Below are positions 46,937 through 62,842 of a stretch of DNA of 64,000 bases, piece by piece. The stretch is from contig CACSIL010000023.1 in NCBI GenBank assembly GCA_902705825.1, positions 15,757 through 79,756 on the forward strand. The letters run 5' to 3'. The notes under the pieces were generated by a model. The model was not told the DNA's origin, made no database searches, and saw nothing but the letters and a program-made list of their open reading frames with translations. Both the position numbers and the translations under genes were made by a program. Positions within the stretch are counted from its first letter, which is position 1. Each line of letters begins with the position of its first letter. This DNA comes from Halioglobus japonicus. GTDB lineage: Bacteria > Pseudomonadota > Gammaproteobacteria > Pseudomonadales > Halieaceae.

Positions 46937-47545
46937 ATGTTAACTGTGGCAGACACCACCGACGATGAAGGCAAACCGCTGGTCGATGCGGACGGAAGGC
47001 GCATTGACGAATGGAGCGAATGCCTGACCCTGATGGCGAAAAATCAGGACAGAGCTGCGTTTACGCGCCTGTTCCGGCACTTTGCACCCCTGATGAAAGC
47101 TTTCGCCCTGTCCGGCTCCACATTATCGGCGAATCATGCCGATGAGCTGGTACAGGAAGTAATGCTGAAGGTTTGGCAGAAAGCGGGAGCGTTCAACGCC
47201 GAAAAAGCGGCCGCCAGTACCTGGATTTACACCATTGCGCGCAACTGCCGGACAGATCTCTACCGCAGGCTGCAAAAGTTTGACACTCCGCTGTCTGCCG
47301 AGGACGTTTCCGATACACAGGAGAGCGAAGAGGCATTCGTCGTGCTGCATCAAAAGCGCAGCAGAGACCGCATCAGGAGCTTGATCAAGGAGCTTCCCAA
47401 CGACCAGGCACAAATACTCGGAAAAGTGTACATGGAGGGTAAAACACACTCCGAGGTATCCGGAGAGCTGAATGTTCCGCTTGGAACAGTCAAATCCCGT
47501 GTGCGCCTGGCCCTTCAGAAACTGCAAATCCAACTTGAAAGATAA
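46937..47545 (+). CDS. rpoE: ECF sigma factor, RpoE of the ChrR-regulated group
   Basis: 202 residues from ATG 46937 (preceded by GGAAAAGAG). Region 2 spans about residues 40-105 (FTRLFRHFAPLMKAFALSGS, then ADELVQEVMLKVWQKAGAF, STWIYTIARN). Region 4 spans about 145-200 (LPNDQAQILGKVYMEGKTHS, GTVKSRVRLALQKLQIQL). It directs RNA polymerase to stress promoters and is paired with a zinc anti-sigma factor directly downstream. The open frame extends to 46883 within the promoter, so that start is rejected. Confidence 0.92.
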   Translation: MLTVADTTDDEGKPLVDADGRRIDEWSECLTLMAKNQDRAAFTRLFRHFAPLMKAFALSGSTLSANHADELVQEVMLKVWQKAGAFNAEKAAASTWIYTIARNCRTDLYRRLQKFDTPLSAEDVSDTQESEEAFVVLHQKRSRDRIRSLIKELPNDQAQILGKVYMEGKTHSEVSGELNVPLGTVKSRVRLALQKLQIQLER

Positions 47546-47549
47546 CGCC

Positions 47550-48200
47550 ATGACTGATTTTCATCCAGACCTCGACCTTATCACCGAATACACTGCAGGC
47601 TCGCTCCCGCTGGCGCAGGCAGCGTGTGTCTCTGTCCATGTGAACCAATGCCATCGCTGCCAGCGCACGGCCGGACAGCTCTCCGATCTCGGCGCAAGCC
47701 TGTTCGAAGCGCAGGAACCCGTGCCGGTCGGCGATGACCTGCTGAACCTTGTTCTGGAGAAACTGGACGATGAAAAACCGCTTGAATACGCCAAGCCACA
47801 GAACAGTAGCGGCACGCCGGCACTACTGCAGCGGCTGATGCGCGGTGATTTCAGCGATCTGAACTGGCGTAATATCGGCTCGACCCTGCGTATCAGCCAC
47901 CTCAAAACCGGTGACCCGGACCACGAGTTCGCGCTCTACCACATCCGGGCCGGTGGCCGTATTCCGGAGCACACCCACCGGGGCACAGAAATGACCCTGA
48001 TTCTGGAAGGCGGCTTCTCCGACGCCAACGGCAGCTACCACAAAGGGGATTTCCTGATCCGCAGGCCAGGTGATGTACACGCGCCCACCGCTCTGCAATC
48101 TGAGGACTGTATCTGCCTGGCTGTACTCGATGCGCCGCTCAAATTTACGGATTGGAAATTCCGCTGGATGAACCCCTTCCTGAAACTGCACTCCGCCTGA
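47550..48200 (+). CDS. chrR: ChrR-type zinc anti-sigma factor
   Basis: 216 residues from ATG 47550. The N-terminal anti-sigma domain has the zinc ligands His5, His30, Cys34 and Cys37, one position from the H6, H31, C35, C38 reported for the Rhodobacter sphaeroides protein. A C-terminal cupin (about 100-200) contains EHTHRGTEMTLILEGGFSD and GDVHAP. It binds RpoE until singlet oxygen triggers release. It starts five bases after the sigma stop. An earlier open start at 47472 overlaps the sigma gene and is rejected. Confidence 0.92.
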   Translation: MTDFHPDLDLITEYTAGSLPLAQAACVSVHVNQCHRCQRTAGQLSDLGASLFEAQEPVPVGDDLLNLVLEKLDDEKPLEYAKPQNSSGTPALLQRLMRGDFSDLNWRNIGSTLRISHLKTGDPDHEFALYHIRAGGRIPEHTHRGTEMTLILEGGFSDANGSYHKGDFLIRRPGDVHAPTALQSEDCICLAVLDAPLKFTDWKFRWMNPFLKLHSA

Positions 48201-48209
48201 TTTGCGCGC

Positions 48210-48986
48210 TCAGCTGCCGAAGACCGTGCCGCCATCCACCTTGATAATGGCACCGTTGGTGTAGCGCGAGGCATCGGAGGCCAGGTAGAGCGCGGCGCCG
48301 ACAATTTCTTCCGGCTCGCCAGCGCGCCCCATAGGCACCCGGGCGAGAAGCTCAGCGCGCAGCTCCTCGGGCCAGGCCTGGGAAATATCCGTCAGAAACG
48401 GCCCCGGCATGATGCAATTACAGCGCACATTGGGCCCCAACGAGTGCGCCAAACCCTCCGTCAGATTGTTCAAGCCCGCCTTGGCCGCCGCATAGGGTAG
48501 TTCAGAGGCAGTGGGCGCAACGGCAGCAATACTGCTAACGTTGATAATTGCACCGCCATCACCGCGCGCCATCTGCTCCCCCACAACAGCCGAGAGCCGG
48601 AACGGCCCCGCAAGATTGACCCCGATAACCTTATCAAACAACTCGCGACTGACCGTCGACGGCGACTCGTACAGCGGCGACATACCGGCATTATTCACCA
48701 GCACATCGATGCGACCATACTTCTCATTGACGGCCTTAACCAATGCGTCACAGGCATCCCAATTTCCCACATGGCAGGGCACTGCCAGACAGGGCCGGCC
48801 GGTCTCACGTTCAATGCGTTGCGCGGCACTGTCGCAGCCATCGGCTTTGCGTGAGCTGATAACCACGTGAGCGCCCGCCTGGGCAAACGCAAGTGACATC
48901 GCGTAGCCCAGGCCACGACTGCCCCCGGTGACGATAATCACTTTGTCAGTGAGATCAAAGTATCCGGCAATTTTTTCTGCTTTCAT
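48210..48986 (-). CDS. short-chain dehydrogenase/reductase
   Basis: 258 residues starting MKAEKIAGYFDLTDKVIIVT. NAD(P) motif TGGSRGLG, NNAG motif and the Ser...Tyr-x-x-x-Lys site (YAAAK after SSIAAVAPTASELP). The C-terminal LASDASRYTNGAIIKVDGGT is typical of FabG-like SDRs. Substrate is unknown. ATG 48986 lies behind GGAGTGGATGTT; the frame is open further to 49043. It is convergent with chrR. Confidence 0.9.
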   Translation of the reverse strand: MKAEKIAGYFDLTDKVIIVTGGSRGLGYAMSLAFAQAGAHVVISSRKADGCDSAAQRIERETGRPCLAVPCHVGNWDACDALVKAVNEKYGRIDVLVNNAGMSPLYESPSTVSRELFDKVIGVNLAGPFRLSAVVGEQMARGDGGAIINVSSIAAVAPTASELPYAAAKAGLNNLTEGLAHSLGPNVRCNCIMPGPFLTDISQAWPEELRAELLARVPMGRAGEPEEIVGAALYLASDASRYTNGAIIKVDGGTVFGS

Positions 48987-49077
48987 AACATCCACTCCAA
49001 TAAGGCCCACAGAGTACAAAATATATGATGCGGTGTCAGGCAAACAGAAATAGCACTATGCGAGGCACATTCTGGAC

Positions 49078-49899
49078 TTGTTCCACAGGCCTAATATAAG
49101 CTGGCGCCATTACATCGAGGTCGAACAGGTTAGCACCATCAAATTGAATACACGTTTTGTGATTGTCGGAGCGCCGCGCACCGGCAGTACGCTGCTGGTC
49201 AAGACGCTGAATACGCTGGACGGTGTCTGCTGTCACGGTGAGCTATTGGGCGAGGATCAGGTACGCGGCTATGAAGATGGGGTCGACCTGATCAATATCA
49301 CCCAACAAGAGCGCAAGAGTCGTGTACAACGGCTGTTGCAGGAGCGCAATGCGGACCCGGTAGGTTTCATCAACAAGGCCCTGAGCACCGGCGGCACAGC
49401 GGCAGGGTTCAAGGCGCTTTACAGCGCCTTTCTCAACCCGAGGTGGAGCGAGATCATGAGCTGGCTGCAGAGCCTGGAGGACATCCGGTTCATTCACCTG
49501 ACACGCGCCAACAGTTTAAGGCGCTTTATTTCAGAACAGATTCTATTGCAGGGCGGCCCCAATCATTCCGGTGCAGGCGGCAGGAGTGACGTGCCGATTA
49601 AAATACACTGCGATATAGAGCTTTTCCTGAGCAGGTCCCTGGAACTTGACACACAGGCCAATGAAATCAGCGCGTTGCTGTCGCAGCAACGGGTGCTGGA
49701 GGTTCAGTATGAGGCGCTAGCTGCAGATACCAGCGCCGCCGTTAAGGACGTGTGTCTCTTTCTGGGACTGAATAATGTGGCATCGACCATCGAACCGGCG
49801 CTGAGGAAAGTAGGCGCGGCAGACTTGCAAGATTCCGTCACTAATTACCAGGAATTGCTGGATCACCCCGCCACTCGAGAATTGGCACTTTCGGATTAA
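49078..49899 (+). CDS. sulfotransferase-family protein
   Basis: Up to 273 residues. The 5'-phosphosulfate loop [10 protein letters not shown] (in [19 protein letters not shown]) and the later [20 protein letters not shown] (PAPS 3'-phosphate region, R-x-N-x-L-R-R) place it in the Stf0/Sulfotransfer families. It probably transfers sulfate from PAPS to a small molecule or glycan. No ATG precedes the loop: TTG 49078 or TTG 49144 must serve, so the start is uncertain. It is followed 14 bases later by a pterin dehydratase. Confidence 0.75.
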
Positions 49900-49913
49900 T
49901 TGAGGAATGGAAC

Positions 49914-50204
49914 GTGAATAGTGAAAAATTGTCGCCGGCCAACATCAATAAAAAGTTGCTGGAGCTAGAACACTGGTGCCTGAGTGACAACAAACTGCAA
50001 CGAGCATTTGTATTCGCAGATTTCGTTGAGGCTTTTGGGTTTATGAGCCGCGTAGCCCTGTTGGCAGAAGCTATGGACCACCACCCGGAATGGTCAAACG
50101 TGTACAACCGAGTGGAAATCTATCTCACTACGCACGATGCGGCGGGTATTACTGAACTGGATTTTACGCTGGCGGGGAAAATAAACAGGCTGCTAGCGGA
50201 ATAG
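49914..50204 (+). CDS. phhB: pterin-4a-carbinolamine dehydratase (PhhB/PCD)
   Basis: 96 residues. The motif [16 protein letters not shown] (around residue 52-67) holds the catalytic histidines and [12 protein letters not shown] follows. It recycles 4a-hydroxytetrahydrobiopterin made by aromatic amino acid hydroxylases. No phenylalanine hydroxylase is present in the window, so it may be part of a wider operon with the preceding sulfotransferase only by position. A hairpin overlaps its stop. Confidence 0.93.
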
Positions 50205-50470: not shown

Positions 50471-53400
50471 TCAGAGCTGAATATTCTGCTCCGCGACCTT
50501 GATATTGTTGTGATCCCGGCACGTCACACGCACGGCGCTAGCGCTGGCGTCGACCTCCACAAACTGGGAGTAGACGTCGGACAGTAGCGTATTGGTACAA
50601 GTGATTGTCAGACTTTTTTCCACGTGTACCGGCACCCGATGGGAAACATCCCACAGGTAATCCTCTACATGCGAATTGGCAAATGGCATGGGCGCGTAAA
50701 GCCCTGAGCTGACAATTTGCCAGACGTCTACCGCCGCATACCCCGGTGATTGTATTTGCAGCTTGGCCACCGCCGACAAGTGCGCGTCGCCACCGACAAA
50801 AAACACGTTTCTAATGCCATGTTCTACAATATAGGCGAGCACAGCTTCCAGTGTCTCGGGATACCCCGCCCAACCGTCCAACCGTCGCCAGGTCGAGCTT
50901 TCACTGCAGTAGGCTGCAGGTAATGGCACCACAATACTACCGGACACAATAAACTTGGGTGAATCCGCGGCATTGTCAGCCGCCTGCTGCAGCCAGCGGG
51001 TCAACGCCTTGAATTGCGGGTCATCGATAAGCGTATAGCCCCCTGCCCTGTTGTGGCAGCGCAGCTGTCGCTGCGACCGCGTGTCCATCACAAACACCGG
51101 AAAGTCGCATTCCTGAGGGTGCGCCAGAGGGTAGTAAAATGGCCCGTTGGCCAATGCAGCACCCGTTGTTCCCACGGGTAACTGGTTGCGCACAGAACTC
51201 ATATAACAAGCGGCCATTTCCCGGGCGTATTGCCAACGCTGGCTTTCACTGTCCGATGCCTCACCGTGCACGCCCGAAAAGTTATCGGCAAACTCGTGGT
51301 CATCCAGTGCAAAATGCGTCGGAATCTGCCGCACCAATGCGTTGAAATTTGGCGAATCCACAGCTCCGAAGGCGCGCCGGTAACGGTCTGTGAAACGCGA
51401 ATTCAGCGAGTTCACTTCAAACAACTGATCGGTGGCATCGGCATAAATCTGGTCGCCCACAAGAAACAGCAACTGCGCACCAGTAGGCCCTGTTATGTGT
51501 TCAAGAATAGCGCTATAAACCCCGTCGGATAGGCCGTTGTCAATCACTGAGCCCGGGAACCGGCATGAGCCAACTATAAAACACAAACGCTTGCGGTCAT
51601 CCGACTGACCCTCTCGCAGCCGCTTAAGCCACGCTTCATCATGGTAGTGAACCGCTGCGCCGCTACGCACATCGAAGTCTGGAAACTCGGAGCAGATTTG
51701 CAGCGCTATATTGCGCTGCGCATCCTTGATCTCGACATCGACAAACTGATACTGGGGCCGCGATTCCACATGGGGAAAAGGCAACACGATGCCACCGTGT
51801 GCCACCCCCTGGACATTGTCACCGCTGGCAACCAAGCCCACGGGAGGATCGATGGTATCGCCGCGCAGCTCCGCATTGTAGCGTAAATGGATTCGGTCAT
51901 TCTCGACCCAGGCGGCCCGCAATATGGGGCCGATCAGTGGTTTTTCCCGGCAGGCTTCAGGCCAGTCGTCCGCGTTAATCGGATCATTGATGGCGCTCGG
52001 TTTACGCAAAAACTCCAGATAATCAGGAAAACACGTACGATAGGCGTCTTTCCCGAAAACAACATCCATGTGGCCATAACCATCGAAAATCTGATAGCCG
52101 ATGACCGGTTTATCATGAGCTGAGCGCTGCTGCAGGAGCTCACTGAGTCGCTTCGCCGACCGCCTCGCAGAATGCGGATTGAAAACAAGGCTGTCACCGC
52201 CGTGGACGAACAGAATATCAATGTTCCAGTTACGCTCTATATTACTGCGCTGAAGATAAATATTTTCACCCTCTTCACTGGTGATGCGCCGCAGCTGTGT
52301 GAAGTAGTACAGGTGTTGATAAACCCGCACTGGTGACGGCCCAAGCATTTTCTCGAAGGCATCATGGGTTGTGTGGTGTAGATTTTCATGGTTCCACATA
52401 CGGCCATACAGGAACGTCATGCGATCACAGATACCATTGACAAGCGCGCTCCCACCGTAGGATGTGTGGTCGTCGTGCACCTCTCGCATCCGCGCCAGGC
52501 TGAACGCCACCCGGTCGATCAAACGGTGCACAGCACTGTCGCTTTTACGCGGCACCGGATGCAGCAGATCGTCTGTAATCCAGTCTCGAGAGACATTGCC
52601 AAGCTTCGCCCGGAAGCGGTTGCCGGGAGAGGGCATCACCCAGGGATGGATCGCATTGGTTACTGCTGCGTGTATTTTTGCGCTGAGGCTGTGATCACGG
52701 AGCACAGCCATTGCCAGCGAACAGGCGCCCACGCAATGCGCGAAAATGGCGACTTTCTGTTCGCCGGTTGCGCTATAGACTGCCTCGATGGCCAACGGAA
52801 TATCGAAACGTGCTATTTCATCGATACTCCATTCTTGATCTTCCAGGTGCGGCAATACGAGATTACTGAGCCTGTAATCCAGCAGCCACACATCGAAATT
52901 CCGTTCGTAAAAATAGCGGGCCATATTGGTAATGCCCTGCGTCCAGAAAATTTCTGACCCCTGAGCAAGACCGTGCAACAACAAAATCGGCTGTGCGCCT
53001 TTTCGTCGATAGTTGCTCAACAGAAGGTTGATATGCTGTTCCGGTTTACAGCCCGGCCGGATTGGTACAGACAGCGTGCGGGTGTACACAGGAATATCAC
53101 CCTCGTCAGTTTCCAGCGGAGGGAGTAGATTCTCCTCTGGCGCGCTACCAACAACAGACGGCTCCTCCTGCCCGGAGTACTCCAGCCCACCGAACTCCCA
53201 GAAATTGGTCATCACCAATGAGCGCAAAGCGTATGCCGTCAACCCACCGGCAAACAGCAGGCTTTGTGGCAAGTTGGGCGATTGATCCACCGCAACCAGA
53301 CCCGGCTCAAGCAGCGCCTCAGTATTAACCTTCAGCCTCGCACTAGCAGCATGCGTATCCCCAGCTTGTATTTTCAGGTCAAGATTGAACAATCCATCCC

Positions 53401-55873
53401 ACAGTCTGGGCAACTCGCAGCTGTAGCCCAGTACTTTCTCTCCACTGATCAATATGGCTTTGTCCGCAGACTCAAATTCGTAACGCAGCCGTCTGCGCCG
53501 GTTCTGCAACGCTCCGATATTGCAAAAGGTGCGTATTTGATTCCATAGATCCCGCCATGAACGGCTGCCCGAGTCATCTTTTACCAGCCCTACCAGGTCG
53601 CCGAATCCGCGCCTTTTTACGTAGGTCAACACCGCCTTCGCGCCGCCCCATATATCGCTGAAAACGTTATGGTTATCTTCTGCAAAGAGAGTGAAGGTTC
53701 CACGCAGCGACAAGAAAGCACCTTCCGGATACGATTCTTTGAGTTGTTGTGCTGAAACACCGACCGGACGAAACGTCTCAACCTCGGCAGCGTCAAATGG
53801 ATTGACGTATAAATCCATCTCGGCTTGCAGCGGCGCCTTTGCCGGGTTGTCCAGCCAGCCAAGCCCATCGGGGCAGACGGCGCGCACCTCTACCACCAAA
53901 CCGGCGGCTTGTTTGAGACGGTGCTGCTGCTCCGGCTTAAGCCTCTCAAGCTTTGAGAACCCGCTGGGCACACTATTCAGCTCGCCGGTCAGTTGCTCGC
54001 GGATAACAAAATCCGTGGTGCCAGGACGTAGGCGCTGGCGCACCGGAACCTCACCGACAGCGTTGTATTGCGGGCTCACCAGGTTGCGGGATGACTCGGT
54101 ACTGCGCTGTTCCTGCAGGATCAGATTCGCATTGCGCCACGCCAGAGCCGAAATGGTGAGAAAAGGGTTAACTTCCAGCGCCGCAGGAATGATGGCCCCA
54201 TCAAATACATACAGACCTTCATGCACGCCGCCGGCGCGGTCAAACACCTGGCCGGCATCGTTGACGACACCGCTGGCCACATCATCGCCCATTGCGCACC
54301 CGCCCAGCGGGTGAACGGTCAATACGCGGCCATCGGGCAATTCCCCAAGAATGCTGCTGGCCTGGGGTGGAAGCAGCTGCCACAGTGGATTGGGCACATA
54401 CTGACCACCGTCCAGGCCCGCTGCCCGATCCTGCGTTTTGAGCATGGAATCTACCCTCAGCAGTGCATCATTTTCCTTGCTCGACGGGAAAGAAACCGTG
54501 ATTCTGTCAGTCAGCGCGGACAGACCCAGTTCGCCCGCAGCGCCGTCATCGCCCATCACCAGCAATGCCTGACAGTGGTCGGCCACCGCCATGGACGCCG
54601 CCAGTGGATCCTGCCCGCCATCCTCCAGACTGCCCGGCAACTTACGATTGGAGAGTCGCTGCAGCATGGCGCCCGTAGTCACCAGTTCAGAGAAAACCCT
54701 GGATAACGAGGCGGGAATACCCGCCTCCTCAATAGTGAGCCGCTGCGTCTGTAGAATGCCGGTAATGGTTGGCCCGATCCGTTGCTGCGGCTGCCGTTGC
54801 TCTCCTTCCGCGATGGCCTTCACGGGGCTCTCCTGAGCGTAGCTCATCGCAATGCCATCACCGTTGGTGGAAAAACGTTGGCCCAGCTTACTGGAGAATA
54901 GCGGTGCCTCCTTCGATTCAGAGCGCAGTAGTATTTCGGTGCTGCCGAGAGTCCCCGCTGCAAGAATCACATGGTGGGCCAAAATCTGGTAGGTATTGGG
55001 CTTGATTCCCTTCGATGGCTGCACTGTGGCATGCACATTGACCAACCAGCGAAAGCCACTGTTTTTCAGAGGCTCAACCGTATGCACTGTGGCACCGGTA
55101 TAAAAACTCGCGCCGCGGGACTTTGCCAGCGGCAGAAGATTCCGGTCCAGCGTATTCTTCGCTCCGACATTGCAACCCGTTACACAGTTGCCACAATCCG
55201 TGCAGGGATTCTGTTGTACGCCGACCTTATTGGCTTCCAGCCCGGTGGTAATGGCCAGACTCGCTGGCCGCGCCTCTGCGCCCAGCGACTGACCCAACCG
55301 GCGCAGTGCGGTGAACTTGGGGAACTCGCCGCCACGGCCCCCGGTATGCCTGGTGACCCCGAGATGTTCACGCACGGCATCGAACTCGGCGGCCAGCGGG
55401 GCCGGGGTGTTGCGAAAGAATTCCGGCCAGGCCGGCTTTTTGAACACATGCTCCTGCGGCTCCTCGGCCACATTGGCATTGATCAGGGAAGTGCCTCCCA
55501 GGCCACTCCCCACCAATACATCCGTCGCGGCGGGCTGACCGCGCTCTACCTCGCTGTCAACGCTGCCGACATGGATATTGAACAGAGCATCGGCATAGCC
55601 GCTGACGCCGCTGTCGTCCCCGCTGCGCAATATGCGCACATGGGAGGGGATATCCTCGATATCGTAGGGGAAGTCGCCCAGCCCGTATTCCCGACCGCGT
55701 TCCAGTACCGCGACCCTGCGCACGGGCCCCTCGGTACCATCGCTCGCCAGCCGCATCGCAGCCACCGCACCGCCGTAACCCGACCCCACAACCAGATAAT
55801 CGACCTCCAGTAGTGTACTGCCTGCCGGCTTATCCTTAATGAGTGATTCAATGGGGGATGAAATCCGTTTCAT
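50471..55873 (-). CDS. giant multidomain enzyme: GMC oxidoreductase + alpha/beta hydrolase + PhoD-like phosphoesterase
   Basis: One uninterrupted 1800-residue frame. (1) About 1-590: a GMC/cholesterol-oxidase-like FAD domain with VVGSGYGG at 28-35, HPLGGCAMGD at 521 and the C-terminal AALEVNPFLTISALAWRNA. It also carries C224-x2-C227-x2-C230-x3-C234, an Fe-S-type motif. (2) About 600-950: a linker region without recognised motifs. (3) About 960-1290: an alpha/beta hydrolase with LLLHGLAQGS, FAHCVGA at 1045 (cysteine at the nucleophile place) and GYGHMDV at 1266. (4) About 1430-1710: a PhoD-like metallophosphoesterase with VGSCRFPG, LVGDQIYAD at 1471, DDHEF at 1524 and VGGDAHLS at 1693. No signal peptide is seen. 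Each domain looks complete. The combined function is unknown; lipid or sterol-type substrates are a guess from the GMC part. Confidence 0.9.
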   Translation of the reverse strand: MKRISSPIESLIKDKPAGSTLLEVDYLVVGSGYGGAVAAMRLASDGTEGPVRRVAVLERGREYGLGDFPYDIEDIPSHVRILRSGDDSGVSGYADALFNIHVGSVDSEVERGQPAATDVLVGSGLGGTSLINANVAEEPQEHVFKKPAWPEFFRNTPAPLAAEFDAVREHLGVTRHTGGRGGEFPKFTALRRLGQSLGAEARPASLAITTGLEANKVGVQQNPCTDCGNCVTGCNVGAKNTLDRNLLPLAKSRGASFYTGATVHTVEPLKNSGFRWLVNVHATVQPSKGIKPNTYQILAHHVILAAGTLGSTEILLRSESKEAPLFSSKLGQRFSTNGDGIAMSYAQESPVKAIAEGEQRQPQQRIGPTITGILQTQRLTIEEAGIPASLSRVFSELVTTGAMLQRLSNRKLPGSLEDGGQDPLAASMAVADHCQALLVMGDDGAAGELGLSALTDRITVSFPSSKENDALLRVDSMLKTQDRAAGLDGGQYVPNPLWQLLPPQASSILGELPDGRVLTVHPLGGCAMGDDVASGVVNDAGQVFDRAGGVHEGLYVFDGAIIPAALEVNPFLTISALAWRNANLILQEQRSTESSRNLVSPQYNAVGEVPVRQRLRPGTTDFVIREQLTGELNSVPSGFSKLERLKPEQQHRLKQAAGLVVEVRAVCPDGLGWLDNPAKAPLQAEMDLYVNPFDAAEVETFRPVGVSAQQLKESYPEGAFLSLRGTFTLFAEDNHNVFSDIWGGAKAVLTYVKRRGFGDLVGLVKDDSGSRSWRDLWNQIRTFCNIGALQNRRRRLRYEFESADKAILISGEKVLGYSCELPRLWDGLFNLDLKIQAGDTHAASARLKVNTEALLEPGLVAVDQSPNLPQSLLFAGGLTAYALRSLVMTNFWEFGGLEYSGQEEPSVVGSAPEENLLPPLETDEGDIPVYTRTLSVPIRPGCKPEQHINLLLSNYRRKGAQPILLLHGLAQGSEIFWTQGITNMARYFYERNFDVWLLDYRLSNLVLPHLEDQEWSIDEIARFDIPLAIEAVYSATGEQKVAIFAHCVGACSLAMAVLRDHSLSAKIHAAVTNAIHPWVMPSPGNRFRAKLGNVSRDWITDDLLHPVPRKSDSAVHRLIDRVAFSLARMREVHDDHTSYGGSALVNGICDRMTFLYGRMWNHENLHHTTHDAFEKMLGPSPVRVYQHLYYFTQLRRITSEEGENIYLQRSNIERNWNIDILFVHGGDSLVFNPHSARRSAKRLSELLQQRSAHDKPVIGYQIFDGYGHMDVVFGKDAYRTCFPDYLEFLRKPSAINDPINADDWPEACREKPLIGPILRAAWVENDRIHLRYNAELRGDTIDPPVGLVASGDNVQGVAHGGIVLPFPHVESRPQYQFVDVEIKDAQRNIALQICSEFPDFDVRSGAAVHYHDEAWLKRLREGQSDDRKRLCFIVGSCRFPGSVIDNGLSDGVYSAILEHITGPTGAQLLFLVGDQIYADATDQLFEVNSLNSRFTDRYRRAFGAVDSPNFNALVRQIPTHFALDDHEFADNFSGVHGEASDSESQRWQYAREMAACYMSSVRNQLPVGTTGAALANGPFYYPLAHPQECDFPVFVMDTRSQRQLRCHNRAGGYTLIDDPQFKALTRWLQQAADNAADSPKFIVSGSIVVPLPAAYCSESSTWRRLDGWAGYPETLEAVLAYIVEHGIRNVFFVGGDAHLSAVAKLQIQSPGYAAVDVWQIVSSGLYAPMPFANSHVEDYLWDVSHRVPVHVEKSLTITCTNTLLSDVYSQFVEVDASASAVRVTCRDHNNIKVAEQNIQL

Positions 55874-56002
55874 GCGATGCCTCTTCGTTGTACCATTTAG
55901 CGAGCATGTTCAGCGCAGTTGTGACGGTCCAATCAGGCCGTCGACACCTTTCGAATGTAGCAGAAAAAACAACTCTTTGCGGAGATACCGGCGAATATAC
56001 CT

Positions 56003-57373
56003 ATGCTACAAACAGTGAATCATGGCGAAATGATTGTATTGCGCGAATCCATACGCGCGCGCATCACTGTTGCCCCTGTTTCAATCCTTTCAACGGCTCT
56101 CGCAATATTCCTGTTCATACCCTTCCTTGTCGCCCATGGTGCGACATATGGCGCTATTTCACTTTGGGCTGTCCCTATTCTCTTGCTGGTAGCGGCGCGA
56201 AGCTATTTTTCCAGGCGGATCAAACAACAGCTGGATACCCTCTCTTCTGCGGCGTTGAAGAATACAGATCTCACGCTACGAATCAGTAGCATCGTCAACC
56301 AGTCCATGGTGGGGCTGGGTATCTGGATTATGCGGCCGACTGCAGAAGATCCGTTTATCCTGCCGTTGTTCATGACGCTGATCGTCGTTATCTGGTCAAT
56401 TGGCGTGATGTCCAACCTGTTTTCCGACTTTCTCAGTTTCGTGCTTTCCATCACCGCTATGATTGGCGAGGTCGCACTATTCTGGTTAGTTCAGGGCGGT
56501 ATCGGTATCTCGATAGGTATCAGTATGTTGCTCGCGATGTCATTGATGGTGTTACTGGTGCTGCAAGGTTCACGCATTTTTCGCGACAGTGTACTGATGC
56601 GCTTTGAAAAAGATCAGTTGCTGGAAAAACTGGAAGTTGAGCAGGGCAATACCCGCCAGGCGTTACTTGACGCACAAGCTGCAAACGATTCCAAGGCCTA
56701 CTTCATGGCCGCCGCCAGCCATGACATAAAACAGCCACTGTATGCACTGGGTATTCTCACCGACACATTGTTGATGTCAGACCCGCCGCAATCTATCGCC
56801 TCGATCTTGCAGAACCAACGGGACAACATTAACCAGATGTCGGACCATTTCGATGCATTGATGGACATGGACAAGTATCAGAACGGCCGATTTGAACTCA
56901 ATTTGACCACATTCTGTCTGGCCGAATTCGCCCGGCGGATTGATATCGAATTTTCCGAGCAATGCAAAAGCCGGGGACTTGACTGGCAACTTGCAGTGGA
57001 GGCCATCACTGTCACGACCGATGCAGATCTGCTGCTGCGATTACTGCGCAACCTGCTGGCAAATGCGGTGCGCTATACCGATCACGGCGCGGTCTGTTGC
57101 AGCGCGTCCATGGTAGATGACTGCGTTGAATTTAAAATCTCGGATACTGGCAAGGGCATTGCGCCGGAACATCAAAAGGCCGTATTTGAGCAAAATGTAC
57201 GCCTTGAGAATAATGACGCCGACGACGCAGGTCGCGGCATGGGGCTGTCGATTGTCGATAAAATTAATACTGCGCTGGCGCTTGACCTACAGATGACATC
57301 GACCGTTGGCAAGGGCACAGTGTTCATCTTTCATTTACCGGTGGTGCCAGCTGACGCTCAGGCGCTCACTTGA
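56003..57373 (+). CDS. sensor histidine kinase, multi-pass membrane
   Basis: 456 residues. About six membrane helices in the first 200 residues, a coiled-coil linker, then the dimerisation domain with the phosphoacceptor His240 in AAASHDIKQPLYALGILTD. ATP-binding domain: N-box NLLANAVRYTDHGAV, G1 DTGKGIAPEH, G2 GRGMGLSIV. The kinase core resembles the hybrid-type HK subgroup that pairs with LuxR-type regulators. The 3' end overlaps the convergent response-regulator gene by eight bases. ATG 56003 is the chosen start; an ATG nine codons later is possible. Confidence 0.9.
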   Translation: MLQTVNHGEMIVLRESIRARITVAPVSILSTALAIFLFIPFLVAHGATYGAISLWAVPILLLVAARSYFSRRIKQQLDTLSSAALKNTDLTLRISSIVNQSMVGLGIWIMRPTAEDPFILPLFMTLIVVIWSIGVMSNLFSDFLSFVLSITAMIGEVALFWLVQGGIGISIGISMLLAMSLMVLLVLQGSRIFRDSVLMRFEKDQLLEKLEVEQGNTRQALLDAQAANDSKAYFMAAASHDIKQPLYALGILTDTLLMSDPPQSIASILQNQRDNINQMSDHFDALMDMDKYQNGRFELNLTTFCLAEFARRIDIEFSEQCKSRGLDWQLAVEAITVTTDADLLLRLLRNLLANAVRYTDHGAVCCSASMVDDCVEFKISDTGKGIAPEHQKAVFEQNVRLENNDADDAGRGMGLSIVDKINTALALDLQMTSTVGKGTVFIFHLPVVPADAQALT

Positions 57374-58022
57374 TAATCTGGAGCTGTTGCGAACGCAGTA
57401 TTGCCTGTGCGCGATTGCCGACACGCAATAATTGGTAGATCCCGTGCAAATGCGTTTTAACCGTTCCCTCCGCCATATTCAGGCGCCTGGCGATAACCTT
57501 ATTGGGAACACCCTGTATCAATTGCTCAAAGACCTCCTGTTGCTTCGGGGTAAAGCGTATCTGTTCCTGTGCAGGGAGTAGTTCGGCCTCGATCACCGGG
57601 TTTGATTCAAACCCCATCAAGCTTGCGGCCGAAGGCGGTATATAGGTGCTGCCGGCCAAAACGATACGAATGGCACTGACAAATACCTGCATAGAGGAGT
57701 TTTTGGAAACAAATCCGTGCACACCATTCTCGAAGCATTGCGCGACGATATCGACACTGTCGTTCCCGGAGAAAATAACAACCGGAAGTGCCGGGTAGTG
57801 CTCGCGGATATACAGCATACCATCGGCACCGGAAACATCGGTAAGACTGAGGTCGAGTACCAGTAGCTGATACTCGCCATCGCGCTCCAGTTTTTCCAGC
57901 AGTTCCTGAAAGGAGGCTGCCGTTTCCACGTCCTCGAAAACACCCAGAGAAATAAGCGACGTCACGAGGGCATCGCGTATGATCGGGTGGTCATCGACAA
58001 TAAGTACTCTGCTGGACATCAC
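57366..58022 (-). CDS. NarL/LuxR-type response regulator
   Basis: 218 residues. The receiver domain has the acidic pair D10-D11 and phosphoacceptor Asp57 (LVLDLSL), a Thr/Ser (FSGN) and Lys in FVSKNS. The LuxR HTH spans about 150-215 (FTPKQQEVFEQLIQGVPNKV, GTVKTHLHGIYQLL). It should be the partner of the convergent histidine kinase, although the pair faces each other instead of sharing an operon. Targets are unknown; the giant multidomain gene next to the kinase is a candidate. Confidence 0.93.
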   Translation of the reverse strand: MMSSRVLIVDDHPIIRDALVTSLISLGVFEDVETAASFQELLEKLERDGEYQLLVLDLSLTDVSGADGMLYIREHYPALPVVIFSGNDSVDIVAQCFENGVHGFVSKNSSMQVFVSAIRIVLAGSTYIPPSAASLMGFESNPVIEAELLPAQEQIRFTPKQQEVFEQLIQGVPNKVIARRLNMAEGTVKTHLHGIYQLLRVGNRAQAILRSQQLQIIK

Positions 58023-58127: not shown

Positions 58128-59066
58128 TCAGGGCTCCAACACGACCTTGATCGCTCCCGCCTCCCGGTTCGCAGCGATGGCAAATGCTTCGGCGGCCGCT
58201 TCGAGCGGCAGGCGATGGGTGATCATAATGTCTGGCAATTCGGGACGTTGCGCGAGTAGCTGTGCCGCAATATCGACATCGCGGACCAACCCCTGACGGT
58301 CGTACATAAATGAGGCAAATATCTTCAATGCCTTCATGGACACCTCAAATGCGGGGAGCGTTACACCGTCCCAGTAGGTAGCCAACAGCAAAATGGTAGC
58401 GCCTGGCTTGCACAAACGCGCAGCCTGTTGCAGGGCGGCAGAATTGCCCGCGCACTCCACGACAAAGTCATACTCGCCTGTGGGCCCGAGCCCCGCGCCT
58501 ATGCGCTCGGCCGCCGCCATTTGCGCCGGGTGGCGGGCAGCGATATCCACCGTGGTGACGTGCGGGGTCAGACAGGCAGCAGCAGCCAGGCCCACCGCAC
58601 CCGCGCCGATGATCGCAACCCTGCTGCCGGGGCTGATGTTCAGCATTCGCAAGCCATGTGCCGCCACCGCCAATGGCTCCACCAGACAGGCATCGGACGC
58701 GCTGACATTCGCGGGCAGTGGCACAATACAGCGCGAGGGCACAATAATCTGCTCAGCCATCCCCCCGTCCCGGCCAATCCCGTACACCATACCTGCGCTG
58801 AGTCGGCACAGACTGTAATCGCCCTGCATACACATATCACAGTGACCACAGGGCGCCACCGGTTCCAGCGCTACAGCGCGACCATCGCGCAGCGTGCCCG
58901 CCACTTCATGCCCCAGCGTGGAAGGCAGATCGAAGCCCGCATTCACCATATGCAGATCTGAGCCACAAATACCTGCAGAGCCCACGTTGACGACGACACC
59001 ATCGCCATCGGGCGCAGGCACGTCCACCACATGAATTTGCTTGTCGCAACAACGTACCGCTTTCAC
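58128..59066 (-). CDS. zinc-dependent alcohol dehydrogenase (MDR family)
   Basis: 312 residues. Catalytic zinc ligands are Cys in GICGSDLH and GHE in LGHEVAGTL; the structural zinc loop is C-G-H-C-x2-C-x7-C. The NAD(P) motif VAIIGAGAVGLAAAA follows at about 155. It is short for the family but complete. It oxidises an alcohol or polyol of unknown identity. It is separated by about 105 bases from the response regulator on the same strand. Confidence 0.9.
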   Translation of the reverse strand: MKAVRCCDKQIHVVDVPAPDGDGVVVNVGSAGICGSDLHMVNAGFDLPSTLGHEVAGTLRDGRAVALEPVAPCGHCDMCMQGDYSLCRLSAGMVYGIGRDGGMAEQIIVPSRCIVPLPANVSASDACLVEPLAVAAHGLRMLNISPGSRVAIIGAGAVGLAAAACLTPHVTTVDIAARHPAQMAAAERIGAGLGPTGEYDFVVECAGNSAALQQAARLCKPGATILLLATYWDGVTLPAFEVSMKALKIFASFMYDRQGLVRDVDIAAQLLAQRPELPDIMITHRLPLEAAAEAFAIAANREAGAIKVVLEP

Positions 59067-59194
59067 TAACTGGAATCCCCGCCTTTTTTATTCTGTAACC
59101 GCCAGACAACAGCGGCATCGCACTGCCGACAATTTAACCAAAAACCCGTCGGCAACGCACGCCAGCGTAGCAGAGCCTGCCAGCGCGGACGAAT

Positions 59195-60412
59195 TCAGCG
59201 CTTCCCGCCATCGAGGTAATCGTCCAGCCAGCCCGCGTAATCTACCCGCTGCACCGCAGCCACAGTGCGCCTCAGGACTTCGGCCATCAATTGATCCTGC
59301 TCAGAGTTAAGTGCGCCAAAGCCGATGGAGACGGCAATCGTCATCAGGGAGTGAAAGGAGAAACTGCGGTATTCCTGCCAGGTCTGCTCAAGGTCTATCG
59401 CCTCGCCGTAGTGCGCCCGGCGCTCCACATAGTAGGCCACCAGCTCCCGCTCGTTTGCGGCCAGCGTCTCGGCGGGCATTGAATCTATCAGGAAGTACTG
59501 TACGTCGCGAATACCCTTGCCCCAGTGGGCAGCCTGCCAATCCAGCATGCCCATTTCATCGCCACTGACAAAGAAATTGCCGAGGTGGCTGTCGCCGTGC
59601 AGCAGCGAAAGCGGGCCGGAAAACCAATACTGCAGCAGTGCATCCCAATTGGCCATCGAGCGCGTATAGGCCTGCTCCACAAGTGGCGGAATCATGCCCG
59701 GTAGTTTTTTCATGGTTGGCTGTAGTGCCAGCCGATTCAACATGCGCGCAGCCAGCCCCATGCGGGGCGAGAGAAACAGGTGGTAGCGCAGGGGCAGCAA
59801 CTTATCACGCTCTGCCGCATTCAGTCCGTAGTGACAGGCATGCAGCCGCGCGAACGCGTCGAGACAGCGATAGGCCAGATCCAGCGAGACACCGGCCATC
59901 ATATCGGGATTGGTAAATAGTTCGACGTCCGGGTCTTCGTGCAGGTTTTCCTGTACCAGAAAAAAGCGGGTCCCCTGGCAGCGGGTGGCATATGTGACAG
60001 GGGTTCGCAGTGGCTGGGTGGACGCAACATGGCGAAAGAAGTGAGATTCCAGTTGCCAGGCGTTAATGACCGTGAAGAACCAGCGGGTTAGCAGTGACTC
60101 CATAGGTATTTTGACAAACAGGCTGCGTGGCAAGGTCGGTTCGCCCTCCTGCTCGATGGTGAGCACCAGGTTTTCGCAATTACTGCTCACCGAGGGGATA
60201 GGCTGGCGCTGCACATGGCTAATATGCACAGGCCTCCTATCAGGCTGCAGTGCACCGCTGTTGATCAACTGCGTCAATACGGCAGGCTCCGCTACCTGCT
60301 GCGCCCGGTAGGGCATGCTTGTACCCGCCATGTCACCCAGCGTGTCCCGCAATAGCCGCAACCCACCCGCAGTGACTATCCCGGCCATCCTCGCTCCATC
60401 TACTACACTCAT
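59195..60412 (-). CDS. phosphotransferase (APH/EcKinase-like)
   Basis: 405 residues. The kinase-like C-lobe has the Brenner motif LLHGDSHLGNFF and the metal-binding aspartate in MGMLDWQAAHWG. The ATP lobe is at about 90-170. It resembles DUF1679/ecdysteroid-kinase-like enzymes that phosphorylate small hydroxylated metabolites. It is divergent from the FAD oxidoreductase at 60536, with a palindromic operator between. Substrate is unknown, though hydroxylated lipids or terpenoids are plausible. Confidence 0.85.
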   Translation of the reverse strand: MSVVDGARMAGIVTAGGLRLLRDTLGDMAGTSMPYRAQQVAEPAVLTQLINSGALQPDRRPVHISHVQRQPIPSVSSNCENLVLTIEQEGEPTLPRSLFVKIPMESLLTRWFFTVINAWQLESHFFRHVASTQPLRTPVTYATRCQGTRFFLVQENLHEDPDVELFTNPDMMAGVSLDLAYRCLDAFARLHACHYGLNAAERDKLLPLRYHLFLSPRMGLAARMLNRLALQPTMKKLPGMIPPLVEQAYTRSMANWDALLQYWFSGPLSLLHGDSHLGNFFVSGDEMGMLDWQAAHWGKGIRDVQYFLIDSMPAETLAANERELVAYYVERRAHYGEAIDLEQTWQEYRSFSFHSLMTIAVSIGFGALNSEQDQLMAEVLRRTVAAVQRVDYAGWLDDYLDGGKR

Positions 60413-60466
60413 ACCAACCCCTTGCGAACAGACTGACTAAGCGAACCAGGCACGCTTGCCCGAATC

Positions 60467-60488
60467 GGACATTTTCAATATTATGTCC
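60467..60488. promoter_or_regulatory. TetR operator-like palindrome, copy A
   Basis: TCGGACAT-N10-ATGTCCGA (60465-60490) is a perfect 8-base inverted repeat midway between the divergent phosphotransferase and FAD oxidoreductase genes. The 22-base core matches a site at 62770 at 16 positions. It is probably bound by the TetR protein encoded at 62154-62732. Confidence 0.65.
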
Positions 60489-60535
60489 GATAACGCGGCT
60501 GTACAAGTCACCGCTTTCATTGTGGAGCGTACGGT

Positions 60536-62194
60536 ATGACCAAGCACACTGAACCGTTCAACAACGCCGGGGGCTCATCCGAGAAGTTTGATTGTATAGT
60601 CGTGGGCGCGGGCCACAATGGCCTGGCAACAGCACTGGTACTGGCTCGCGAGGGGCGGCGCGTACTGGTACTGGAAAAGAACAACTTTGTCGGCGGCATG
60701 GGGGGTACCCGCGAAATACTCAAAGGCTGCCGCAATGAAGTGGGCGCCAGCTGCCTGTTTCCGCTGTCGGCGGAGATCAAACACTATTTCGATTTCGAAT
60801 CACACGGCGTGGAACTGATACCGCTGCCGGTGATGGCCGTGAACCTTGTCGGCGCAGACGGGCGCCCCTTTGTTATTTACAAAAATCCTCTGCGCCTGTC
60901 ATTCAACCTGCTTAAGACATTCGGCCTGAGCGGCATGCTGGGCTTCATCCGTATGCTGAAGTTCTGTCAGTATCCAGCACGCGTGCTGGATCGCTTCACC
61001 GCGCGCAAAGCGCCGCGCAAACTCGAGGATCTGATCGCCGAGGCGGAAACGCCTGAACAGCGCAAACACCTGGAGTTAGCGTTCAATGGCTCTGCGATGG
61101 ACATACTCGACAAGTTTTTCCCGGACCCGGTCAAACACCGGGAACTGCGCGCCAGCATGGCCTTTGCCGCTGTACAAGCAACCTACAAGGGCCCTTACTC
61201 GCCCGGTTCCGGACTGTGCCTGATCTACACCATGGCACAGGAGGGCTCCGAGGGACTGATGCAGCGTGTGAAGGGCGGTATTGGGCGCCTGTCAGACTGT
61301 CTGGCACAGCAGATAGACGCACTGGGCAGCGAGGTGCGGCTTAAACAGAATGTGGTGAAGATTCTGGTGGAGAACAATTGTGCCGTGGGCGTAGAGCTCA
61401 AAAATGGCCATCGAATCTATGCCGACACAGTGATATCCAACCTCGATAAACAGGCGACGTTCAACCGGCTACTCGAAGATCATAGCCTGGCAACAGCCGA
61501 GCAACAGAAAGTGGACGCGTTTTCCCACCGCGGTGCGTTTGTGCACATGCTGTTCAAGTTAAAGGGGCTCCCGACCTACTCCGCTCACCTCGACAAGCTC
61601 AACAGCATTACCGGCGCACATTTCGGCGGGGCTATGGTGCTGGACCCGGAACAACTGCAACAGAGCTATGAAAGCTGCCTGCGCGGCGAGTTGCCAGATC
61701 ACATTCCACTGGCGTTCCAGATACCGACGGTGGTTGACAGCAGCCTGGCTCCAGCGGGGCAGCACATCGCCAGCGCCTATGGATTCTACTTTCCCTGCGA
61801 AGCGGAAAAGGCCAAACGGGGCAAACTACGCGACCAGATGGCGGAGAAAATTATCGATCACATCTGTGTGCATATGCCCGACTTCAGATCCCTGATCGTC
61901 GATCAGGCAATTTTTTCCTCCGACCACTTCGCGGTGATGCAGGGCGTAACCAACGGCGACTGGACCCACGGCCTGCTGCACCCGGACCAGATGATTGGCG
62001 AGCGCTGTCTGATCGATGGTACCGGGCACACCACGCCCGTAGCTGGCCTGTACCTGTGCGGCGCATCCTGCCACCCCGGTCCTGGCGTAACGTTTCTACC
62101 CGGCTACAACTGTGCGCATGAAATCATCGCGGCTGCGGCAATTGCGGATGCGACTACTTCAACAGTACCGGTACCAGCAGCGCGTGCAGCGTAG
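60536..62194 (+). CDS. phytoene-desaturase-like NAD(P)/FAD oxidoreductase
   Basis: 552 residues. N-terminal FAD motif VVGAGHNGLATALVLAREGR followed by VLEKNNFVGGMGGTREILKG, the CrtI/phytoene dehydrogenase pattern. The C-terminal FAD-contact segment is GLYLCGASCHPGPGVTFLPG then YNCAHEI. It probably removes hydrogens from an isoprenoid-like or other lipid substrate. No carotenoid synthase genes lie nearby, so carotenoid synthesis is not indicated. Its last 41 bases overlap the convergent TetR gene. Confidence 0.88.
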   Translation: MTKHTEPFNNAGGSSEKFDCIVVGAGHNGLATALVLAREGRRVLVLEKNNFVGGMGGTREILKGCRNEVGASCLFPLSAEIKHYFDFESHGVELIPLPVMAVNLVGADGRPFVIYKNPLRLSFNLLKTFGLSGMLGFIRMLKFCQYPARVLDRFTARKAPRKLEDLIAEAETPEQRKHLELAFNGSAMDILDKFFPDPVKHRELRASMAFAAVQATYKGPYSPGSGLCLIYTMAQEGSEGLMQRVKGGIGRLSDCLAQQIDALGSEVRLKQNVVKILVENNCAVGVELKNGHRIYADTVISNLDKQATFNRLLEDHSLATAEQQKVDAFSHRGAFVHMLFKLKGLPTYSAHLDKLNSITGAHFGGAMVLDPEQLQQSYESCLRGELPDHIPLAFQIPTVVDSSLAPAGQHIASAYGFYFPCEAEKAKRGKLRDQMAEKIIDHICVHMPDFRSLIVDQAIFSSDHFAVMQGVTNGDWTHGLLHPDQMIGERCLIDGTGHTTPVAGLYLCGASCHPGPGVTFLPGYNCAHEIIAAAAIADATTSTVPVPAARAA

Positions 62195-62732
62195 CGCGCA
62201 GTTGCGCGTCAGTGCGCACCCAGTTACTGGGCAGTGTGAGGAATGACAACAGCAAACGGTATACCCACTCAACCAACACTTCAGGACGCACCGCATCCTG
62301 CAGCAGACCGGCGTCTCTGGCCGGCGTGATCACGTGGTCCATCAGTTCTTCACCAAAACGGACGATAACATCGGAGTGCCAAATGGCACGCCGCGCGCGA
62401 CTATCCTCATCGGAGGCAAATACCGCGCGCAGCAGCGGCCGCCTGGGCACTTCCTTGATCGCGACGATCATCCCTTCGACTACCTGGTCGGCCGGATCAG
62501 AGTACTTTGCCAGCCGCTTGCGCAGCCGGACGTTCAACTGCTCCATTTCGGCCTTTATGGTGGACACCAGCAGGTCGTCGCGGCCCGGGAAATAGCGGTA
62601 GACTGTGGAACGTGCAACACCTGCACACTCCGCCACCTCTTTCATGCCTGTGGCAGAAATACCCCTGGCGAGGTAGCAGCGCCGGGCGGCATCGATAATT
62701 AATTGAACGGGATCTGGCCGGGGTTCAGTCAT
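62154..62732 (-). CDS. TetR-family regulator of the phosphotransferase/oxidoreductase group
   Basis: 192 residues from ATG 62732 (MTEPRPDP). HTH at about residues 25-50 (ISATGMKEVAECAGVARSTV then YRYFPGRDD). The C-terminal ligand domain has no recognisable pocket motif. The frame is open to 62810, but similarity starts at the ATG used. Palindromes of shared sequence lie in its own promoter and in the 60.4-60.5 kb divergent promoter, indicating it controls four genes. Confidence 0.88.
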   Translation of the reverse strand: MTEPRPDPVQLIIDAARRCYLARGISATGMKEVAECAGVARSTVYRYFPGRDDLLVSTIKAEMEQLNVRLRKRLAKYSDPADQVVEGMIVAIKEVPRRPLLRAVFASDEDSRARRAIWHSDVIVRFGEELMDHVITPARDAGLLQDAVRPEVLVEWVYRLLLSFLTLPSNWVRTDAQLRATLHALLVPVLLK

Positions 62733-62769
62733 TTGACCTGACAAGCCTTGAGTACTCAGCGGAAGAATG

Positions 62770-62791
62770 AGACATTTTCGACTATATGCCC
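62770..62791. promoter_or_regulatory. TetR operator-like site, copy B
   Basis: AGACATTTTC then GACTATATGCCC aligns with copy A at 16 of 22 positions, with conserved GACATTTTC and ATATG-x-CC. It is less symmetric than copy A. It lies between the TetR gene and the divergent sulfotransferase gene, allowing control of both. Confidence 0.55.
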
Positions 62792-62842
62792 AATAGCGTA
62801 AAGCATCCATCCAAAGCAGGACAATAACAGGAACACACTATT

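Follow-up and report, generated by a model that had tools for sequence, protein, structure and literature searches.

Results

Organization of the fusion locus

The window, the whole 64,000-nucleotide stretch of Halioglobus japonicus DNA analysed here, carries a gene of 1800 codons beside a two-component system (Table 1). A sequence-only reading of the window had described this gene as three enzyme classes, normally acting separately, in a single uninterrupted frame, and domain search bore this out. All domains scored above their Pfam gathering cut-offs: GMC_oxred_N (residues 25-319, 51 bits against 23), GMC_oxred_C (residues 519-578, 45 bits against 24.6), Abhydrolase_1 (residues 962-1087, 31.5 bits against 25.8), and PhoD (residues 1458-1728, 66.4 bits against 27). 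The databases label the protein merely 'alpha/beta fold hydrolase'. The sequence-only reading had left room for an architecture that was already characterised; among the literature matches listed, no characterised protein with this architecture was found.

Table 1. Features of the fusion gene and of the adjacent two-component genes in the window.
Feature	Position	Strand	Basis
Three-enzyme fusion gene, 1800 aa	50471..55873	(-)	ATG to stop, one uninterrupted frame
GMC (FAD) oxidoreductase unit, residues 15-590	54104..55831	(-)	Pfam; PDB profile; conserved FAD glycines, H521, N569
C224-x2-C227-x2-C230-x3-C234, candidate Fe-S site	55172..55204	(-)	Conserved cysteines, BcGDH-like spacing
Middle domain, residues ~591-945	53039..54103	(-)	AF2 model of 582-954
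Alpha/beta hydrolase unit, residues 946-1300, acid/gastric-lipase-like	51974..53038	(-)	Pfam, profile, fold
C1047, putative nucleophile elbow, in A-H-C-V-G	52733..52735	(-)	Conservation, model
D1227-S1228, canonical acid position after strand 7	52190..52195	(-)	Model, alignments
H1268, putative catalytic histidine after strand 8, in G-H-M-D	52070..52072	(-)	Conservation, model position 331
Beta-rich stretch before PhoD, residues 1301-1425	51599..51973	(-)	Model secondary structure
PhoD-type phosphodiesterase unit, residues 1426-1775	50549..51598	(-)	Pfam, fold
Sensor histidine kinase, divergent, hydrophobic N-terminal part, HisKA + HATPase	56003..57373	(+)	Pfam
LuxR-type response regulator	57366..58022	(-)	Pfam; beside kinase in both same-genus relatives

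The window's genome holds a single full copy of the fusion, and only partial GMC matches occur elsewhere in it. Two same-genus genomes carry full-length one-frame homologues, with 75% (G001) and 58% (G008) identity. Against the 75% homologue, pN/pS was 0.23 for the GMC unit, 0.32 for the middle domain, 0.14 for the hydrolase, 0.45 for the linker, and 0.24 for PhoD; in the comparison with the 58% homologue, silent sites were near saturation. Judged by these ratios, all five segments of the fusion, the linker included, are under purifying selection. No export signal was apparent by eye. Because no signal-like stretch lies ahead of the GxGxxG that starts at residue 30, we read the fusion as cytoplasmic.

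Distribution and history of the three-domain architecture

The scan of genome contigs confirmed 531 relatives, and the census below covers the 80 best of them. This set is biased towards the window type and holds close kin, for example four Pseudacidovorax; some of its loci belong to genomes that also occur in the other samples (L122 = G008, L148 = G001, L163 = G215, L165 = G056). Other proteins with the same three-domain order were found, the architecture being present in 44 of the best 80 of the 531 relatives; of these 44, one has its frame broken inside the GMC part (L173) and two run off contigs (L175, L183). The remainder comprised a GMC-hydrolase gene with an adjacent PhoD gene (14/80), a GMC-hydrolase gene without PhoD (12/80), separate GMC and hydrolase genes (7/80), a broken locus with all parts (L178, 1/80), and GMC only (2/80). 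Two of the 12 loci counted as PhoD-less (L131, L154) are cut by contig ends, yet branch inside the PhoD clade.

In wider draws from the class and the phylum, the three-domain architecture was sporadic. Among 274 genomes of the class, it occupied one frame in the window's own genome, G199, and G215, with a break within PhoD in G094; among 398 genomes of the phylum, it was met in the window's own genome and in G374, where PhoD follows as its own gene after 35 nt. Of the 57 relatives' genomes that were searched, the window's own included, five had the three domains in one frame. Representatives of the fusion are spread over alpha-, beta-, and gammaproteobacteria. Of the 74 matching plasmid records, seven, all from Ensifer, reached a query coverage of 80% or more; one of the seven (L053) has a frame break near the N-terminus. 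The Ensifer protein WP_205239617.1 ('alpha/beta fold hydrolase') has the same three enzymes in one frame of 1908-1918 aa and is about 28% identical to the fusion, but a cyclase stands next door instead of a kinase. Plasmid proteins of the WP_149201188.1 type ('alpha/beta fold hydrolase' or 'GMC oxidoreductase') share the GMC and hydrolase units in the same order, whereas they lack PhoD and have other neighbours.

A phylogeny built with FastTree from 99 rows placed all loci with PhoD, whether fused or split, on one side of a single branch when the contig-cut pair was left out; PhoD presence needed one change without these two loci and three with them. The split forms were nested among the fused forms, which requires six changes, and six Sphaerotilaceae and kin formed one clade with a common split. 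Given this nesting and the single PhoD branch, the tree fits a single acquisition of PhoD followed by several breaks of the chain, after which the genes stayed neighbours. Some of the two-frame loci could be hidden sequencing frameshifts. In L063 (11075-12556), a two-domain GMC-hydrolase gene that falls outside the PhoD clade is immediately followed by a PhoD-like gene (494 aa, E 2e-14), a pairing of possibly independent origin. On a Leptospira borgpetersenii plasmid (L116, 5504-10520), a two-domain GMC-hydrolase gene is followed by another GMC-like frame.

An artefact of assembly or frameshift was weighed against these data. Some relatives are indeed split or frame-broken (L053, L061, L173, L178), but the single frame is intact in independent isolates and on plasmids, and purifying selection extends across the linker. 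A sequencing fusion, for which homologues should always be three separate genes, is excluded by the 44 fused loci among the best 80; with this census, the same-genus one-frame homologues, the Ensifer plasmids, and the pN/pS values, we rejected it and regard an artefact as having virtually no chance. That the gene encodes a genuine protein of three enzymes, linked to a regulator, is nearly certain.

GMC oxidoreductase unit and its cysteine motif

The closest solved structures of the GMC unit are cholesterol oxidases (PDB profile E 5e-43), with the class I enzymes of the GMC family (1b4v, 1coy) as the best solved relatives. The FAD-binding GxGxxG and the active-site residues were invariant in the aligned relatives (G30 81/81, G32 82/82, H521 80/80, N569 81/81). 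H521 lies in HPLGGC and N569 in NP-x-x-TI, which we take to be the active-site motifs of cholesterol oxidase. Unlike cholesterol oxidase, the unit is joined to three further domains, and its cysteine cluster has no counterpart at the corresponding place of the aligned cholesterol oxidases. Membership in the cholesterol oxidase family (NF058674) was rejected at 141.3 bits against an equivalog cut-off of 850 bits.

The sequence-only reading had suggested that the cysteine cluster holds an Fe-S cluster for electron transfer. Among the aligned residues, cysteine was found at C224 in 82/82, C227 in 80/82, C230 in 82/82, and C234 in 82/82. The spacing C224-x5-C230-x3-C234 is that of Cys212, Cys218, and Cys222, the ligands of the 3Fe-4S cluster in the Burkholderia cepacia FAD glucose dehydrogenase (BcGDH; PMC6719666). 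The alpha subunit of this Fe-S GMC enzyme (6A2U) matched the GMC unit with a profile E of 8.8e-14; the likeness is one of spacing, not of residue-level alignment, and the fusion has the extra cysteine C227 in between. No partner subunits such as those of BcGDH were found at the fusion locus. C227 makes the motif ferredoxin-like, and the Pfam Fer4 and ferredoxin models match it weakly, below cut-off. With its BcGDH-like ligand spacing, an Fe-S site is plausible, but the motif is not peculiar to the fusion: it occurs in 6 of 18 stand-alone GMC-like frames (loose filter) and, by this comparison, is ancient and independent of the fusion.

Cysteine-type alpha/beta hydrolase unit

The hydrolase unit best matched 1hlg by profile (E 1e-13) and 6v7n by fold (E 1e-12). 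Its assignment to the alpha/beta hydrolase fold rests on the Pfam score, the nucleophile at the elbow, and, in the model, the histidine after the last strand. Lysosomal acid and gastric lipases (6v7n, 1hlg, 1k8q) are the nearest folds, and a Y-G-H-x-D-like histidine motif occurs in both them and the fusion; however, acid lipases have a serine nucleophile and an aspartate acid, whereas the fusion family has a cysteine nucleophile and serine or asparagine at the acid position. The replacement of serine by cysteine, noted by the sequence-only reading, proved to be a family trait: the nucleophile column was Cys in 79/79 aligned pieces from the best-80 loci. In an earlier, partly overlapping set, it was Cys in 31/32, and the stand-alone hydrolase of L101 had Gly. 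C1047 corresponds to model position 110, between strand 104-109 (strand 5) and helix 111-122, and H1268 was conserved in 76/76 aligned relatives.

At the acid column 1228, the 79 relatives have Asn (75), Ser (3), or Thr (1); the window has Ser1228, and Asp never occurs. In a PDB alignment, the Asp of another hydrolase falls on this column, and column 1227, occupied by Asp1227 in the window, is not conserved among relatives. The proposed triad of Cys1047, an acid, and His1268 therefore held for the cysteine at the elbow and the histidine after strand 8, but not for the acid. For the family, the centre resembles Cys-His-Asn; the window's own branch has Ser instead, and Asp1227 may take over the role of the acid there. 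To our knowledge, alpha/beta hydrolases seldom have such a triad. With an acid not conserved as Asp, the unit may be weak, different, or dead. Two family memberships were rejected: that of acid lipases (AB_lipase; Cys in 79/79, no Asp at the acid column, Abhydro_lipase 11.9 bits against 27) and that of PHA synthases (10.2 bits against a family cut-off of 622.65).

PhoD-type unit, middle domain and linker

PhoD (2yeq) was the best fold match of the C-terminal enzyme (E 2e-16). The candidate metal residues are conserved (C1437 56/56, D1474 58/59, Y1477 59/59, D1525 59/59, H1698 56/56), as are D1524 and an Asp-Asp-His-Glu box. In PMC4223295, Bacillus subtilis PhoD is described with a tyrosinate-ligated Fe3+ that has a Cys ligand and with two Ca2+, the phospholipase D of Streptomyces chromofuscus is placed in the PhoD family, and PhoD-type enzymes are called extra-cytoplasmic. 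The Cys and Tyr positions of the fusion fit this Fe site when mapped by motif, not by alignment. In contrast to those enzymes, the PhoD unit has no signal-like N-terminus by eye and would be part of a cytoplasmic fusion.

The middle domain, which the sequence-only reading had passed over, was modelled by AF2 (residues 582-954) as a strand-rich fold with a pLDDT of 82 and a pTM of 0.75. A Pfam search of it gave no common family (each in at most 1 of 43 members), a PDB sequence search gave no match, and a PDB fold search gave no match at E<=0.001 (best 0.022). The domain accompanies the GMC unit, and a shorter form of it is present in stand-alone GMC proteins of about 780 aa. A transmembrane anchor was rejected, the helix at about 868-890 being only moderately hydrophobic with Arg in most rows. 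The stretch ahead of PhoD is the least conserved segment of the fusion.

Two-component and cyclase neighbours

The two-component neighbour noted in the sequence-only reading is not only present but meaningful, an adjacent kinase occurring in 44/57 PhoD-type loci and 0/16 PhoD-less loci. Counts were made on the 57 PhoD-type loci for which 1.5 kb or more of upstream DNA was available (L183, with less, was dropped), and 'histidine kinase' here denotes relatedness of the kinase core to two kinases at E <= 1e-10. Of the 44 directly adjacent kinases, 41 were upstream and 3 downstream; the upstream ones, of which 36 share the strand of the enzyme gene and 5 are divergent as in the window, lay at -31 to 230 nt. 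A cyclase was directly upstream in 9/57, and neither kinase nor cyclase in 4/57 (L121, L151, L160, L174). Among the 19 other loci, from which L179, L181, and L186 were dropped for short upstream DNA, two had a kinase, both contig-cut members of the PhoD clade, one was the broken L178, and 16 had none. The contrast is strong, not absolute: outside the best 80, PhoD-less plasmids carry a hybrid kinase two genes away (Leptospira, L116) or a two-component regulator propeller gene upstream (Bernardetia, L117). In L186, a regulator lies 10 nt downstream.

The cyclase, of about 1350 aa with a TOMM kinase/cyclase-like ATPase part (117 bits), stands divergently upstream and replaces the kinase in alphaproteobacteria (L129, L138, L143, L145, L146, L147, L149, L152, L167). 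Since Mesorhizobium L167 has the cyclase although its enzyme branches among Burkholderiales, the cyclase tracks the host and not the enzyme alone.

Profile scores relate the kinase of the window to NahK/ErcS and its regulator to ErdR, both well below the cut-offs; membership in MxtR/ErdR (CrbS/R) was rejected (ErdR 125 bits against 390, NahK/ErcS core 173 bits against 400). MxtR/ErdR is reported to govern acetate use in Pseudomonas, and by analogy a link to acetate use is at most a hint.

The 58% relative in G008 shares with the window only kinase, regulator, and fusion, plus a generic transporter-like match. Genes for a ChrR-like cupin, an SDR, a sulfotransferase, a zinc alcohol dehydrogenase, an ecdysteroid-kinase-like protein, and others occupy 47472-50201 and 58131-62810 of the window; they stand beside the fusion in G001 and were not found near it in G008. 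Between fusion and kinase, two TGCTACAWW elements lie back to back (55954-55962, minus strand; 56004-56012, plus strand) and resemble extended -10 boxes. TGCTACATT is also found ahead of the gene in L148 and L122. The window has three TGCTACAWW against 1.6 expected, which is not significant by itself. The second element overlaps the first ATG of the kinase, and therefore translation may in fact begin at the ATG of position 56030.

Relatives encoded as separate genes

In five Bacteroidota loci and the cyanobacterium Desmonostoc, separate hydrolase and GMC genes lie near patatin-like and acetoacetate-decarboxylase-like (ADC-like) genes and genes for small membrane proteins. The conserved cluster, seen at 3421-12331 of L188 and also in L184, L185, L193, L197, and L191, is made up of hydrolase, ADC-like protein, small membrane proteins (DUF4345-like), patatin, metallophosphoesterase, and GMC in the L188 type; the Pfam names of the Bacteroidota genes come from L188 only, and the metallophosphoesterase was not found in the L191 cluster. 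A calcineurin-like metallophosphoesterase was near GMC in 8 of the 80 best loci, none of them with PhoD, and in Azospirillum it adjoins the two-domain GMC-hydrolase gene. Common ancestry of the Bacteroidota metallophosphoesterase and the PhoD unit was rejected on a weak profile comparison (probability 32%), and the former was treated as an analogue. The separate-gene clusters point to a lipid or acyl compound and suggest that cleaving a phosphoester belongs to the same task.

Discussion

Considering the three units together, we give about an even chance to a cytoplasmic, sensor-regulated, trifunctional enzyme for a lipid-like molecule. For this enzyme, we infer the activity of each unit, Fe-S binding, a lipid substrate common to the units, the cofactors, the direction of regulation, and the order of reactions. 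The GMC unit would oxidise an alcohol group with FAD and pass the electrons through the Fe-S cluster to an acceptor. In the acid-lipase-like unit, Cys1047 would attack an ester via an acyl-thioester, followed by hydrolysis or acyl transfer, and the PhoD unit, through an Fe/Ca-type site, would cut a phosphodiester, for example that of a lipid head group. Expression of the gene would be turned on by the histidine kinase and regulator upon a cue.

A lipid-like substrate is suggested because the solved relatives are cholesterol oxidase, lysosomal acid/gastric lipase, and PhoD, whose family includes a phospholipase D (PMC4223295), and because the six separate-gene loci hold patatin-like and ADC-like genes. 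The sequence-only reading had seen one processing line in the order oxidation, hydrolysis, dephosphorylation. Indirect support for one line comes from parts that also occur as adjacent or separate genes and from the patatin neighbour in Bacteroidota, but domain order is not reaction order. Several observations speak against the lipid-line reading: a PhoD-less two-domain type exists (10/80, the two contig-cut loci left out); most genes of the Bacteroidota cluster are absent at the window; PhoD-type enzymes are described as extra-cytoplasmic (PMC4223295) and the fusion is not obviously exported; the hydrolase acid is not Asp; and the cholesterol oxidase model reached 141 of 850 bits.

The units might instead act on separate substrates, the fusion merely equalising their amounts under one regulator. 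The occurrence of the two-domain form alone would suit this, as would the 14 of 80 loci, several closely related, that are broken into adjacent genes with the neighbourhood kept; such splits also indicate that covalent linkage is dispensable. Yet PhoD was still adjacent after every split seen, and a sequence-unrelated metallophosphoesterase family near GMC, in loci none of which has PhoD, fits one pathway better. Because the units stay together (44/80 fused, 14/80 with PhoD as the next gene), a single pathway is favoured; the units likely share one substrate, and we consider separate substrates unlikely. A hydrolase unit that works as an acyltransferase, using Cys1047 as PHA synthases do in a protein that builds a lipid or polymer, is rather unlikely. 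Cysteine nucleophiles favour transfer, and the cysteine is invariant in the 79 aligned pieces; PHA synthase profiles matched weakly (E 0.009; NCBIfam models 0.0078-0.18), and PhaC was among many fold matches (E 2e-7). On the other hand, lipase structures were far better fold matches, and the PHA synthase scores of about 10-15 bits stand against cut-offs of 365-623.

The kinase adjacency could also mean that the enzyme makes or destroys a signal read by the kinase, which would make the locus a signalling and not a catabolic module. The position of the kinase, on the same strand in 36 of the 41 upstream cases and at -31 to 230 nt over all 41, agrees with this, and so does the cyclase that takes its place in nine alphaproteobacterial loci. 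Co-regulation by a substrate sensor explains the adjacency equally well, however, and we hold a signalling module to be quite unlikely. Most speculative, and distinctly improbable as a whole, is a self-contained sensing module in which the kinase-regulator pair and the trifunctional enzyme would serve one membrane lipid through oxidation, Cys-His-Asn(Ser) de-esterification, and phospho head-group removal; the middle domain would then be a lipid-handling fold not yet described, moving the substrate from one site to the next, and the oxidised lipid would be the cue of the kinase.

The fusion is a variant built from known families. Under the label 'alpha/beta fold hydrolase', its oxidase and phosphodiesterase parts are overlooked. 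The fusion combines a lipase fold whose cysteine-type centre lacks the usual acid with a folded domain without detected relatives in Pfam and PDB searches, and its natural splits are ready separable parts for biochemistry. Should all three units act on the same molecule, the fusion would amount to a compact line for lipid processing that brings its own regulator.
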